Origin: a bacterium HR17
GTDB lineage: Bacteria; Armatimonadota; Fervidibacteria; Fervidibacterales; Fervidibacteraceae
Assembly (NCBI GenBank): GCA_002898575.1
Contig: BEHT01000011.1
Location: 1 to 64,000, forward strand
Length of the DNA stretch: 64,000 nt
Direction of reading: 5' to 3'
Shown piece by piece: positions 57,528 to 64,000 of the stretch. Every line of letters starts with the position of its first letter. Within the stretch, counting starts at the first letter, position 1. The position numbers and the translations under genes were made by a program. The notes beneath the pieces are model-generated. The model was given only the letters and a program-made list of their open reading frames with translations. It did no database searches and was not told where the DNA came from.

Positions 57528-58343
57528 TCAACGCACTTGCACTTGGAACCGTCGGGTTGGCAAAACAAACGCCCGATACATCGCCAACGGTTGCCCAGGC
57601 GCACCGAAATAGCCGTAGGCGTCCACTTCCAAGTTGTAAATGCGCCGTTGCATCTCTTTGGGCTGTAGCGTGATATTAACCGTCATCTGCTGTTGGGGCG
57701 CCAGCCCGGCAAAATACAGGCGGACGCTATCACCGATGAACTCAGGGGGCACGATGGGGTTAGGCGTCACTTGAGGCGGTTCCGCATTGGTGACCAAACT
57801 GCCCCGTAACACCAGCACCCATTGATTCAACGGATTTTGTTCGCCGTTGGTGAAGGTCACGGTAATGTGGATCGGGTCACCTAACATCACCTGTGACGGC
57901 ACAGCGGTTTGCAGTGACAACAACGCCGACTCCGGCACGGGCGGACCGACAATCAGCGGGAGCACGATGAACCGAAAAACCAGGAGCAAAACGACAGCGG
58001 TGCCTGCTCCCCACGCCAACGCCCGCAGCAGCGGGTTGGCTAAAACCATCTGCCACGGTGTGGGGTGTAACGCCGGGCGGTTTTCCGGGCACGCCCACAC
58101 ATGGTCGGGTTCAGGAATGTGGTAGCGTCCAAACTCGTCTCCAAAGGTGAAACGGATGCGTTGGTTAGTGCACTCCCAAGTGGCGGTATCGGCATATTGA
58201 CAGTAGCGACATTTGCGGAGGTTCTCGCCGCACTGAGGGCACCGCACAGTCGTCGGCTGCGGGACGAAAATGACGCCACATTCGGGACAACGCCATACGG
58301 GCGGCGATGAAGGATGCGCCGGCACTTTGGTCGGCTGCTCCAT
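57528..58343 (-). CDS. Zinc-ribbon membrane protein, unknown function
   Basis: 271 residues. Two N-terminal zinc knuckles (CPECGVIF, CPQCGENL) and a further CRYCQY...C set precede one membrane helix (GTAVVLLLVFRFIVLPLIV). The C-terminal 120 residues form a beta-rich domain outside the membrane with phrases like DPIHITVTFTNGEQ, as in CARDB/DUF11-type folds. The start has GGAGGTG. It is 60 bases after the glycosidase-like gene on the same strand. Confidence 0.75.
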   Translation of the reverse strand: MEQPTKVPAHPSSPPVWRCPECGVIFVPQPTTVRCPQCGENLRKCRYCQYADTATWECTNQRIRFTFGDEFGRYHIPEPDHVWACPENRPALHPTPWQMVLANPLLRALAWGAGTAVVLLLVFRFIVLPLIVGPPVPESALLSLQTAVPSQVMLGDPIHITVTFTNGEQNPLNQWVLVLRGSLVTNAEPPQVTPNPIVPPEFIGDSVRLYFAGLAPQQQMTVNITLQPKEMQRRIYNLEVDAYGYFGAPGQPLAMYRAFVLPTRRFQVQVR

Positions 58344-58403
58344 TGGCGCCCACCTCCTGTGGGCTGGCGACACCGTTGTCCGCTGGCGGCTATTATGCCG
58401 CAC

Positions 58404-60206
58404 TTACCACACGAATTGCACCACCGCCACACCGTATGACGGCAACACCAAGCGCACTACAGGCGACGCCTTCTGCTCCGCGTAAGTCGGCGTTTCCCGC
58501 TCCCGCAACAACCGCCAACGCACGAGGCGGGCGCGCTCCACGCCAATAGCCTCCAGCAAAACTTCCATTTCCGCAGTGTGCGTGTTTACCACCAAGACAT
58601 TCCCGGCGGTAGCCGTTCGCCCCGCCAGAATCAGACACGGGGCATAGTTGCTGGCTGCCGCAACCAGCGGGGTGCCTGCCGGAAAGTAGGTGTTGCACGC
58701 CCACACCGCCCAATAAGCCGCCTGCGGCGTCCCTTGGCGGTCCAGTAAGCCCCACCCGTTACTTGCCAAACAGTAGTGGACTAACGACTCCGCCTTGCCT
58801 GCCATCGCTGTAAACAGGGCTGCCAACCACGCCGCGTGGAACGATGTGCCGACGCGGTTATCGGCAGGTTCCCCGTCCTTCGTGCGGGCGGCGTTCAAGG
58901 CGCACTCGCTCACTTGCAGCGGCACCCCTGAGGGGGGGTAAAGCCGTCGCAGCCATTCGTCCAAGCGGTTCAACGGCACTTGATCAGGTAAGTCGGCACT
59001 GACCGTTTCACGGGCAGCGCGCATTAACTCTTCATCGCTGGTGCTGGCTGTGTGGGAACCGTAAAAATTCAAGGTGAGGAAATCGGGGCGCGGCGACTTG
59101 GCAAACAATGTCGTCAAGCGCGAGCGCCATGCTGCTCCCTCGCCCCATCCGCCCACTTGGGCGTTGGGCACAACCCGCTTGATCGCGTCCTGCAGCGACG
59201 CAAAGTAAACAGCCACAACCTCAGGACGCAGTTGCAGCGGCGGTTCCGCAGGACGGTGAAACACTTCAAATAAGCGCACCGTTTCTGCCAAGCGCTGTGC
59301 CCAGAACACGGCTTGCTGCTGAAACGCACCAGAGGGCAAATCGTCAGGTGCCATCGGCGTGAGGGTGACCAAAGGCACCATGTCCAAGCGGCGCACTTGG
59401 CGCGCCCAAGCCGTGACATCGCGCACCGCCACTTCAAAAGAACGCCCCTGAAGCCATTCGTTTACGACAACGCGCGCCAAGCCCAGCCGCAACTCTGCGA
59501 TGCGTTTGCGGGCAGTGGCGTTCTGCAGCAACTCAAACGCCACAGGGTCCCAATGCGCGCCCCACCTCAACAAAGTCACACCTTGCTCCTGCTGAAAATC
59601 CACGACCGCGCGGGCAGTGACAGCAGGTACGGACGGCGCACTCACTTCCACCGCTACATCGTCCATCACGAAAAAGAAAGGGGCAAACGGTCCGTTGCGC
59701 TCTATCCGCAACGCCGTGAAGTAACGGACGAAAACGGTCGCTGGCGTCCCGTCAGCGTCACGGAAACTGTCCCATGCGAGCCGTTCCGTTTGCCAACCCG
59801 TCGGCAACGGCAGTTCAGCGCGGAACACGCGCTCGGTCCCTTGCCGTTCCACGACCAGCGAGAGGGTGACCGATGCGGTGCTGCCGTCGCCAACCCAAGT
59901 GAAAGTGAGCGCGGTCGCTTTACGGGCGCTGAGTTGTGCACCGTTTAGCGGAAAGATGAACCGTGCCCACTCGCCCTCGTGAGCACGGCGCCACAAAAAC
60001 AATCCGGCTCGCTGACTTTGTCCCGACGGGGTCAAATGAGAGGTTTCCAATTGGGCTAACGGAAGGGGTTCGCTTTCGCGGTTTTGGTGCGCTTCCACAA
60101 ACCACCGCCCAGTCCCTTGTTCAAAGTCCTCCAACACCCATCGTTCCTGTTCCGAAAAACCGGCGTCGCAAAGCGCGACAATTGCCAACAAGATAAACCA
60201 CCGCAA
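58404..60206 (-). CDS. Secreted glycosidase-like protein (GH39-type TIM barrel)
   Basis: 600 residues. A signal peptide (WFILLAIVALCDAG), an N-terminal beta-sandwich of about 180 residues (VLEDFEQGTGRWFVEA, carbohydrate-binding-like), a TIM-barrel part (RLGLARVVVNEWLQGR; FLTLNFYGSH; LQVSECALNA), and a small C-terminal beta domain. The acid/base and nucleophile Glu cannot be assigned with certainty (candidates E in RVVVNEWL and QVSEC). TTG start with AAAGGAGG. Function as glycosidase is inferred from the fold. Confidence 0.65.
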   Translation of the reverse strand: MRWFILLAIVALCDAGFSEQERWVLEDFEQGTGRWFVEAHQNRESEPLPLAQLETSHLTPSGQSQRAGLFLWRRAHEGEWARFIFPLNGAQLSARKATALTFTWVGDGSTASVTLSLVVERQGTERVFRAELPLPTGWQTERLAWDSFRDADGTPATVFVRYFTALRIERNGPFAPFFFVMDDVAVEVSAPSVPAVTARAVVDFQQEQGVTLLRWGAHWDPVAFELLQNATARKRIAELRLGLARVVVNEWLQGRSFEVAVRDVTAWARQVRRLDMVPLVTLTPMAPDDLPSGAFQQQAVFWAQRLAETVRLFEVFHRPAEPPLQLRPEVVAVYFASLQDAIKRVVPNAQVGGWGEGAAWRSRLTTLFAKSPRPDFLTLNFYGSHTASTSDEELMRAARETVSADLPDQVPLNRLDEWLRRLYPPSGVPLQVSECALNAARTKDGEPADNRVGTSFHAAWLAALFTAMAGKAESLVHYCLASNGWGLLDRQGTPQAAYWAVWACNTYFPAGTPLVAAASNYAPCLILAGRTATAGNVLVVNTHTAEMEVLLEAIGVERARLVRWRLLRERETPTYAEQKASPVVRLVLPSYGVAVVQFVW

Positions 60207-60971: not shown

Positions 60972-62009
60972 CTATGTGCCGTTCAATCCCAGCGATCTTT
61001 CTGCGTCAAAAAGCAGACGCATCGTTTGCAAGTTGTCGTCGGCATTGCACAAGGGTTGTCGCCCTTGCTCAGCGGCTTCCAGCAAATCGCATAATGCCCA
61101 GAGAAAAGCGTCGGGCACATAACGGTAAGTGCCGCGCAGGACAACTTCCGTGCCATCAACACCGACCCATCGGACGGTCGGTGGTTCCATCGTAACCGCA
61201 TCGTCGTAGCGTTCCACACCTAACAAATTAGCCTCTGTGCCATACACTTCACACCGCCATTCCGTCGCAAAAGGCATGCAAGTGGTGTCTGTTGCCGTCG
61301 CGACGGCGCCGTTGGGGAATCGGACGACGAAAGTGACGCACCACCGATAGTGCCCGTCGTGATGGGCTGTCGCCGCCACGAGGGTCGGCGTCGCCCCCAA
61401 AAACCATCGCAACAAGTCCATCGTGTGGACGCCGAAGTCGTGCACCATCCCTTCGTAACGGTTGGGGAAGTCCGACCGCAGCAACACGGCGAACGGTTCA
61501 CCGACCGCACCCGCTTCTATCAAGCGACGCACGGCGAAAAAAGTGGGGGCAAAGCGCGCGTTTTGATTGACCGCCAGCAACACGCCCGCCCGTTTTGCCG
61601 CTTCCGCCATCGCCACACATTGTTCCCAGGTCGCCGCCATCGGTTTCTGCAGAAGGATGTGGCAGCGGTGTTCAGCAGCGGCGCAGACCGCTGCCAGTTT
61701 GTCTTCGGCATGACGCTGCCAATGCAGCGTGATGTCCACGACATCTGGGCGTTCTTTGTCCAACATTTCGCGAAAATCCGCGTAGACGGCAGGGATACCC
61801 CAGAGGCGGTAGGCTTGCTCACGGCGTCGTTCGTCTACATCCGCAGCGGCGACGATGTCTATGGGGATACCCCATGATTGCCCTTTGCGATAGGCGGGCA
61901 AGTGGGCGGATTGAGCGATGCCGCCGACGCCGATAAGAGCGATACGCCAACGGCGCTGCAACTGAAAGCGCGGGTGTCGCTCCACCTTCACGAGTTCGTC
62001 AACGGTCAC
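60972..62009 (-). CDS. Gfo/Idh/MocA-family oxidoreductase
   Basis: 345 residues. N-terminal RIALIGVGGIAQSAHLPAY binds NAD(P); the catalytic EKP motif reads QKPMA (LLQKPMAAT), with Gln for Glu; C-terminal domain includes DFGVHTMDLLRWFLG. It acts on a sugar or inositol derivative not identifiable here. The GTG start overlaps the WD40 gene end by 11 bases, with GAAGGGGG inside that gene, so the two are translationally coupled. Confidence 0.87.
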   Translation of the reverse strand: MTVDELVKVERHPRFQLQRRWRIALIGVGGIAQSAHLPAYRKGQSWGIPIDIVAAADVDERRREQAYRLWGIPAVYADFREMLDKERPDVVDITLHWQRHAEDKLAAVCAAAEHRCHILLQKPMAATWEQCVAMAEAAKRAGVLLAVNQNARFAPTFFAVRRLIEAGAVGEPFAVLLRSDFPNRYEGMVHDFGVHTMDLLRWFLGATPTLVAATAHHDGHYRWCVTFVVRFPNGAVATATDTTCMPFATEWRCEVYGTEANLLGVERYDDAVTMEPPTVRWVGVDGTEVVLRGTYRYVPDAFLWALCDLLEAAEQGRQPLCNADDNLQTMRLLFDAERSLGLNGT

Positions 62010-62937
62010 GCGCGCTGCCCCCTTCGCTCAGGCGCCATAGCCGCACCGTTTTGTCGCGACCACCCGACGCCAACAATGTGCCATCGGGCGCAAACGCTAC
62101 GCAGAGCACTTGGTCACGATGCCCCTGCAGCGCCCGCAGAAAAGCGCCGTCCCGAACACGCCACAGCCGCACTGTTCCATCGTAAGTCGCCGACGCCAGC
62201 AATTCGCCGCTGGGCGAAAACGCTACGCCGAGCACAAGGTTGTTCGGCGCTTGCAAGGTGTGCAGCAAAGCCCCGTCAGCCACGCGCCAAAGGCGAATCG
62301 TGCGGTCCCAACTGCCGGTCGCCAGCAGCGTGCCATCGGGCGAAAACGCCACGCCCCGCACCCAGTCGCCGTGTTCGGGCAGGATCAGCGCCGCACTCCC
62401 GTCGTCAACTCGCCAAAGGGTCACGCTGCCGTCGTAAGTCGCCGTCACCAGCAAAGTGCCATCGGGCGAAAAGGCTAACGCCATCACGGGGCTGCGGTGG
62501 CGCCCGAGGGTGCCCAACGGTTCACCGTCTGGCAGCCGCCACAAGCGGACCGCCCGGTCGGCGCCCGCCGATGCCAACAGCCCTTGGTGGGGGGCAAAGG
62601 CGACAGCGTTGACCCAATCGGTGTGCCCCGTCAAAAGGCGGTGCAGTTCCCCAGTTGCCACCGTCCACAGCCGCACCGTCTTGTCACCGCTGCCAGTTGC
62701 CAGCCAACGCCCATCGGGGGAGAAGGCTACGCCCTTCACCCAGTCCCTGTGTCCTCGCAGTGTGTGAACCGCTTGACCGTCGGTGACCCGCCACAGCCGA
62801 ACGGTCGCATCGCGGCTGCCCGACGCCAGCAGGCTGCCGTCCGGCGAAAAGGCAACCGCTTGCACCCCGTCGGCATGCCCCTGCAAGATGTCCGGCGGCG
62901 AGCGCTTGCCCCAAAGGGTGCGGAGCCATCCGACCAT
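61999..62937 (-). CDS. Seven-bladed WD40 propeller protein
   Basis: 312 residues. After 20 residues come seven repeats with the GH...D(K/A)TVRLWRV pattern, for example LRGHRDWVKGVAFSPDG and GSGDKTVRLW, making a closed propeller with no other domain. The repeats are very alike, which points to recent amplification or a synthetic-like scaffold. No signal peptide. Role probably protein scaffolding; it is coupled to the Gfo/Idh gene downstream. Confidence 0.9.
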   Translation of the reverse strand: MVGWLRTLWGKRSPPDILQGHADGVQAVAFSPDGSLLASGSRDATVRLWRVTDGQAVHTLRGHRDWVKGVAFSPDGRWLATGSGDKTVRLWTVATGELHRLLTGHTDWVNAVAFAPHQGLLASAGADRAVRLWRLPDGEPLGTLGRHRSPVMALAFSPDGTLLVTATYDGSVTLWRVDDGSAALILPEHGDWVRGVAFSPDGTLLATGSWDRTIRLWRVADGALLHTLQAPNNLVLGVAFSPSGELLASATYDGTVRLWRVRDGAFLRALQGHRDQVLCVAFAPDGTLLASGGRDKTVRLWRLSEGGSARDR

Positions 62938-62974: not shown

Positions 62975-63511
62975 TCATTTCGCCCCCTGCGGCGCCTCTC
63001 CTTGTTGCAAGGTACGGAGCAGTTTGACCAAATCTTGCCCGTGCGTGCGGACATTCACTTTATCGTCAACGGCGCGGACGATGCCTTTGGGGTCAAGAAT
63101 GAAAGTGACGCGCCGGGCGAGTTTGCGCTCCTCATTGAAGATGCCGAACAGTTTAGCGACCTTGCCGTCCGAATCCGCCAGCAACGGGAAGGGTAACTTT
63201 TGTTCGGCGCAAAATTCCTTTTGCGTCTGCGGTGGGTCCACGCTAACGCCCAACACGACAGCGTTGAGCCTTGCCAGCTCCGCCGCTGCGTCCCGCAGCG
63301 ATTGCATTTGCAGCGTTCAGCCAGGTGTTTTCGCTTTGACGAAAAACGCGATGATGACCCACTTGCCCTTGAAATCCGTGAGTTTGACGGGCTTGCCCTC
63401 GTGATTGACGGCTTCAAACATTGGCGCTGGGTCGCCCACCTTTAACGGCTGAGATCGCTGGGGTTCTTTGCCCAGCAGCGCAAACGAAGTCAGCATGGCA
63501 AACCAAAGCAC
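62975..63511 (-). CDS. Peroxiredoxin (AhpC/TSA, BCP-like), likely selenoprotein
   Basis: About 178 residues, read through an in-frame TGA at 63319-63317 (residue 65). Before it: LKVGDPAPMFEAVNHEG and WVIIAFFVKAKTPG; after it: TLQMQSLRDAAAEL and LPFPLLADSDGKVAKLFGI, all in one frame and typical of BCP peroxiredoxins. The TGA stands exactly where TPGCT has its peroxidatic Cys, so selenocysteine is the simplest reading. A 7-bp hairpin with a G-starting loop follows 23 bases on. A GTG at 63511 begins a signal-like helix (WFAMLTSFALLG), so export is likely. One Cys remains (EFCAEQ). No sel genes in the window. Confidence 0.8.
63284..63300 (-). promoter_or_regulatory. Candidate bacterial SECIS hairpin
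   Basis: RNA CGCUGCG-GGA-CGCAGCG: a perfect 7-bp stem with a three-base loop starting with G, whose loop begins 23 nucleotides after the UGA. Bacterial SECIS elements lie inside the coding region at this distance and need a G at the loop start. Confidence 0.65.
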
Positions 63512-63588
63512 GGCTCTCACCCCCGTATGGGACACCCACAACTTTAGCACGCTCAGGTGCCGAAAACCATAGCGAACGGGTGATATCA

Positions 63589-64000
63589 GTGGCAAAGTCT
63601 CCATACGCCGTTGATCCGGAGGGCTCGGTCGTCTTGACGGAACGCGAGAAATTTCAACTTTACCGTCAGACCCGGGACGAACGATTGCGGGAAGAACTCA
63701 TCAACACCTACCGCCCGCTGGCGGAACATATTGCCCGCCAGTTCGCCTATACGGGTGAACCGTTGGAGGACCTTATCCAGTGGGCGCTGATTGGGCTTAT
63801 TAAAGCCGTAGATGCCTACGACCCATCTGTCGGGGTAAAGTTCACGACCTACGCGTGGCACCACATTCGCGGCGAAGTCAGCCATTATTTGCGGGATCAG
63901 GGCAAGTTGATTGCCGAGCCGGCATGGTTACAAGAAGCCCGTATAAAGGTAGAGCGTGCCCGTAACGAACTGCGCCAACACCTTTACCGTGAGCCGACAG
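63589..64000 (+). CDS. RNA polymerase sigma factor, SigB/FliA type (partial)
   Basis: The gene runs off the right edge; only the N-terminal 137 residues are seen. Region 1.2/2: NTYRPLAEHIARQFAYTGEP, EDLIQWALIGLIKAVDAYDP, VKFTTYAWHHIRGEVSHYLRD match sigma-70 region 2 of group 3 (sporulation/stress/flagellar) factors. Start is a GTG at 63589 or 63580. It is divergent from the peroxiredoxin gene with a very short shared upstream region. Confidence 0.88.
   Translation, partial: MAKSPYAVDPEGSVVLTEREKFQLYRQTRDERLREELINTYRPLAEHIARQFAYTGEPLEDLIQWALIGLIKAVDAYDPSVGVKFTTYAWHHIRGEVSHYLRDQGKLIAEPAWLQEARIKVERARNELRQHLYREPT

Follow-up and report, generated by a model that had tools for sequence, protein, structure and literature searches.

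Within the window, the 64,000-nt stretch of DNA that was analysed, a predicted selenoprotein peroxiredoxin gene of the PrxQ/BCP type lies on the reverse strand at 62975..63511, running from a GTG start to a TGA stop and encoding 178 residues when its internal TGA is read as selenocysteine (Sec65). An earlier note on this DNA had described a frame open on either side of a single TGA. Direct reading of frame 63511-62975 confirmed this: one internal TGA was found at 63319-63317 (codon 65) ahead of the terminal TGA at 62977-62975, and the gene contains no further disruption. Three other features lie within it on the same strand: a hydrophobic signal-like or anchor-like N-terminus of ~20 residues (63452..63511), a bSECIS-like mRNA hairpin (63283..63301), and the codon of a candidate resolving cysteine, Cys101 (63209..63211). 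A divergent gene of the sigma-70 family (region 2; 63586..63999, forward strand), which extends past the window, is also a conserved neighbour at the locus of the ortholog in G003, a genome of the same family. A further pair of neighbours looks alike by eye at the two loci (window 57528-58403 and 58404-60206; G003 locus L137, 245-1030 and 1088-2965). On the other side, a gene for a WD40-repeat protein (beta-propeller; 61999..62937, reverse strand) starts ~38 nt 3' of the peroxiredoxin stop and is possibly cotranscribed with the peroxiredoxin gene. No WD40 gene was seen next to the ortholog in G003; a P-type ATPase occupies that position.

With the TGA translated as Sec, the protein matched PF00578 at residues 25-147 with 139 bits (E 1e-40), and the match spans the TGA; PF08534 scored 84 bits. 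Together with matches to BCP/PrxQ structures, this bears out the claim that both sides of the TGA belong to a BCP/AhpC peroxiredoxin. The top NCBIfam model, PRK09437 (thioredoxin-dependent thiol peroxidase), reached 113.2 bits, under its cut-off of 140, and the assignment to PrxQ/BCP is therefore made by resemblance and motif rather than by that curated model. The PrxU model NF040737 gave 80.6 bits, below its cut-off of 270. The best solved relatives by sequence were Sulfolobus Bcp1 and other BCP proteins. An AlphaFold model built with 27 sequences showed the peroxiredoxin fold (mean pLDDT 92.7, with low confidence at residues 1-20), and its nearest solved structures were BCP and AhpE. The PrxQ subgroup is marked by a Gly directly preceding the catalytic residue and by a G(V/I)SxD motif (PMC5302317); the window protein carries both, as TPG-U and as GVSVD at 88-92. 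It shares its fold, the TxG(C/U) motif, GVSxD and the conserved Thr and Arg with Cys-type PrxQ/BCP proteins (3drn, 5iiz, 5epf, 5enu), but, unlike them, has Sec in place of Cys, lacks a Cys at +5, carries Val instead of the Pro and has an N-terminal hydrophobic segment. Fold similarity to the 1-Cys peroxiredoxin AhpE (1xvw, 4x1u) is also high; however, the Ala-Phe dyad of the AhpE motif is lacking, and a Gly stands before the catalytic position as in PrxQ (motifs from PMC5302317).

To place codon 65 among its homologues, we aligned 30 sequences of the phylum, the window gene included. Within (P/V)xxxTxxC, the TGA occupies the position of the peroxidatic Cys, as had been noticed from the sequence at the outset, and only Cys or TGA was found at this site (22 TGC/TGT and 8 TGA). 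Thr62 of PxxxTxxC is invariant, as is the conserved active-site Arg, R134 (alignment A2). On the tree, the TGA forms group together: 3 changes suffice, against an average of 7.2 when labels are shuffled (0/500 as low); as to a putative single origin of these forms, the tree speaks neither way. A tRNA-Sec match was found in 7/8 genomes with the TGA form; since 13/22 genomes with the Cys form also had one, the link between tRNA-Sec and TGA across the phylum is not significant (Fisher p 0.21). Among the TGA genomes, tRNA-Sec was not matched in G024, which is 88% complete. One further locus (L039; genome G055:C305:9418-10296) encodes two peroxiredoxins in tandem within a single frame, with a TGA at the catalytic position of each half, and is possibly a two-Sec fusion selenoprotein.

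The G003 ortholog is 53% identical and has a TGA at the same codon. Identity is 26/44 before the TGA and 57/113 after it, and third codon positions vary most on either side, indicating that the sequence beyond the TGA is constrained at the protein level; in an attempt at dN/dS, synonymous sites were saturated. In the same-genus genomes G001 and G002 (61-63% complete), only distant paralogues were found.

The hairpin 3' of the TGA has an 8-bp stem (UCGCUGCG/CGCAGCGG) and the loop GGA (63293-63291), with a folding energy of -11.4 kcal/mol; a hairpin with a loop starting in G, 23 nt downstream of the TGA, had been noted before and is confirmed here. Published bSECIS limits are a loop of 3-9 nt, a stem of 4-16 bp, a G at loop position 1 or 2, a distance of 16-37 nt from the UGA and an MFE of at most -7.5 (PMC13188914). 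When the RNA fold was checked against these limits, all values lay inside them (loop 3, stem 8, GGA, 23 nt, -11.4 kcal/mol). By itself the hairpin is mildly unusual and is weak evidence: an equally stable hairpin follows 1.7% of all codons in long frames of the window, and the whole 54-nt fold gave z = -1.45, with 20/200 shuffles as good. The G003 ortholog has a hairpin at the corresponding place with another sequence (UCCCUGC-GGUCG-GCAGGGG). One stem pair is G-C in the window gene and C-G in G003, compensated on both sides; as the only compensated pair between the two, it is suggestive of a conserved hairpin and goes no further than that. The weight for Sec comes from the sel machinery, from the five sister genes described below and from the ortholog.

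We then searched the genome of the window (G000; 3.15 Mb, 96% complete) for the selenium machinery, as the earlier note had proposed, and selA, selB, selC (tRNA-Sec) and selD were all present. Profile matches gave selA on contig C14 (581 bits), a full-length selB on C34 (409.5 bits) and selD on C2 (385 bits), while tRNA-Sec with a UCA anticodon lies on C7 (78.3 bits). The selD gene has its own in-frame TGA in GGUACK, and SelD itself is thus probably a selenoprotein. Its simple hairpin (SelD at L023:1501-2427) has -5.8 kcal/mol, weaker than the bSECIS limit of -7.5.

PF00578 had 11 matches in G000, of which 6, counting the window gene, contain one TGA. In the five other genes, the TGA stands for the first Cys of a CxxC-type motif (HWUEPC, FGUGPC, PHUGAC, PGUSAC and YCUINC). 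In each of the six TGA genes, a hairpin lies 16-25 nt beyond the TGA, with energies of -9.9 to -12.6 kcal/mol and a G at loop position 1 or 2. Hairpins of this kind stand behind 3.4% of codons in the window's long frames and behind 0/28 terminal TGAs, so that finding one in 6/6 genes by chance has a probability of ~1e-9 if the sites are independent. The five other genes of the thioredoxin fold (L002, L003, L005, L008 and L102), each with one TGA in the UxxC position and a hairpin behind it, probably encode selenoproteins and would be split by automatic annotation.

These results bear directly on the possibility that a nonsense mutation, or a sequencing or assembly error, broke a Cys peroxiredoxin gene. 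TGA is one base from TGC and TGT, and TGC/TGT homologues are common. However, an ortholog of only 53% identity, with matching neighbour genes, shares the TGA, a TGA is found at the catalytic Cys of five further PF00578 genes in the genome, constraint continues past the TGA in a gene without any other disruption, and the genome has the full sel machinery. Together with the normal use of TGA as a stop, this makes a mutation or an error very unlikely.

Equally improbable is that the UGA at codon 65 is read with insertion of Cys, through a sulfur analogue or a tRNA charged with Cys, at least when selenium is low. What speaks for it is a tRNA-Cys with a tRNA-Sec-like form in G000; however, its GCA anticodon does not read UGA, selD is present in full, and neither a second selB in the genome nor a cysS alongside this tRNA was found. 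The tRNA came to attention as a candidate second selC, which was rejected when the second tRNA-Sec match turned out to be this tRNA-Cys(GCA) (L010:1501-1591, reverse strand, corresponding to G000:C22:52032-52122; RF01852, 55.9 bits, above cut-off). It has a U at the discriminator position and is the second tRNA-Cys(GCA) of the genome, the ordinary one lying at G000:C47:6727-6799. It resembles the selC* tRNA-Cys, which is known from Firmicutes, Thermodesulfobacteria, Nitrospirae and Proteobacteria (PMC7609411). Genes for tRNA-Cys(GCA) matching RF01852 were also found in two other genomes of the phylum (L142 and L143).

Least probable of all is a genome-wide reassignment of UGA as an ordinary sense codon for Cys or Trp, without selenium: several genes do have an in-frame TGA, but TGA is the stop of 28/45 of the longest non-overlapping frames in the window, no tRNA other than tRNA-Sec was found with a UCA anticodon, tRNA-Trp has CCA, and the in-frame TGAs found sit at catalytic Cys positions. 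We therefore rejected a reassigned code and, given the constraint after the TGA, a pseudogene. The reading of the earlier note, that this gene uses Sec, is supported by the sel genes, by a hairpin within the limits, by the presence of Cys or TGA only at the site and by the intact frame. Taken together, these results make us highly confident that the gene encodes a predicted PrxQ/BCP-type peroxiredoxin with selenocysteine as the peroxidatic residue at UGA 63319-63317.

The frame, family, TGA site, sel genes, hairpin and ortholog were obtained by computation, and we infer Sec insertion and peroxidase activity. In the mechanism that we propose, SelB and Sec-tRNA-Sec would decode UGA 63319-63317 as Sec, directed by the hairpin just 3' of it, and the selenolate of Sec65, aided by Thr62 and Arg134, would attack the peroxide in the manner of PrxQ. 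The resulting selenenic acid would be reduced, probably via Cys101 and a thioredoxin-like partner, possibly a UxxC selenoprotein of the same genome; the Cys101 step and the reductant are both conjectural. Cys101 lies in helix 94-104 of the model, and homologues without a Cys at +5 often carry a Cys in its column, so that a selenenylsulfide between Sec65 and Cys101 is a reasonable guess. In Xanthomonas PrxQ, the resolving Cys lies in the same helix as the Cys101 column. In the G003 ortholog, however, residue 101 is Ala and the conserved part contains no other Cys, and this protein would thus act as a one-Sec enzyme. A conserved resolving Cys as a trait of the family was therefore rejected, although C101 suits the Cys-type homologues.

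The Pro of PxxxTxxC is near-universal in peroxiredoxins. It is Val58 in the window gene, as it is Val in the G003 ortholog, and Pro in 28/28 other homologues examined; the change may be neutral with Sec, or catalysis may differ. Tentatively, and with the odds against it, one family's Sec-peroxiredoxin may have lost this Pro and, in one of the two members seen, every resolving Cys, with selenium chemistry relaxing near-universal constraints. The protein begins with a short hydrophobic stretch that lacks a clear cleavage motif, and clearer signal-like N-termini occur in six more distant TGA-bearing homologues. The export proposed in the earlier note is thus plausible, though less certain than the use of Sec, and the protein is probably exported or membrane-anchored.

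BCP-type Sec-peroxiredoxin (Prx, COG1225 Bcp, TxxU) is an established selenoprotein family, first described from Eubacterium acidaminophilum (PMC9312934, PMC13188914). The window gene resembles known members in its BCP type, Sec at the peroxidatic position, TxxU motif (TPGU), sel system and hairpin after the UGA, but differs in Val58 for the motif Pro, its hydrophobic N-terminal extension and the 80.6 bits to NF040737. Since TxxU peroxiredoxins of this type are already established, the window gene is a further member of that family. The gene is likely to be split at the TGA by automatic annotation and the enzyme missed. Within its genome, the Sec65 peroxiredoxin is one of a few likely selenoproteins of the thioredoxin fold. 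With Val in place of the Pro, it offers a way to find out which residues of the active site are truly required in a Sec peroxiredoxin, and, if the tentative reading above is true, Val58 and the lost resolving Cys would show selenium chemistry loosening active-site constraints that have been regarded as near-universal.
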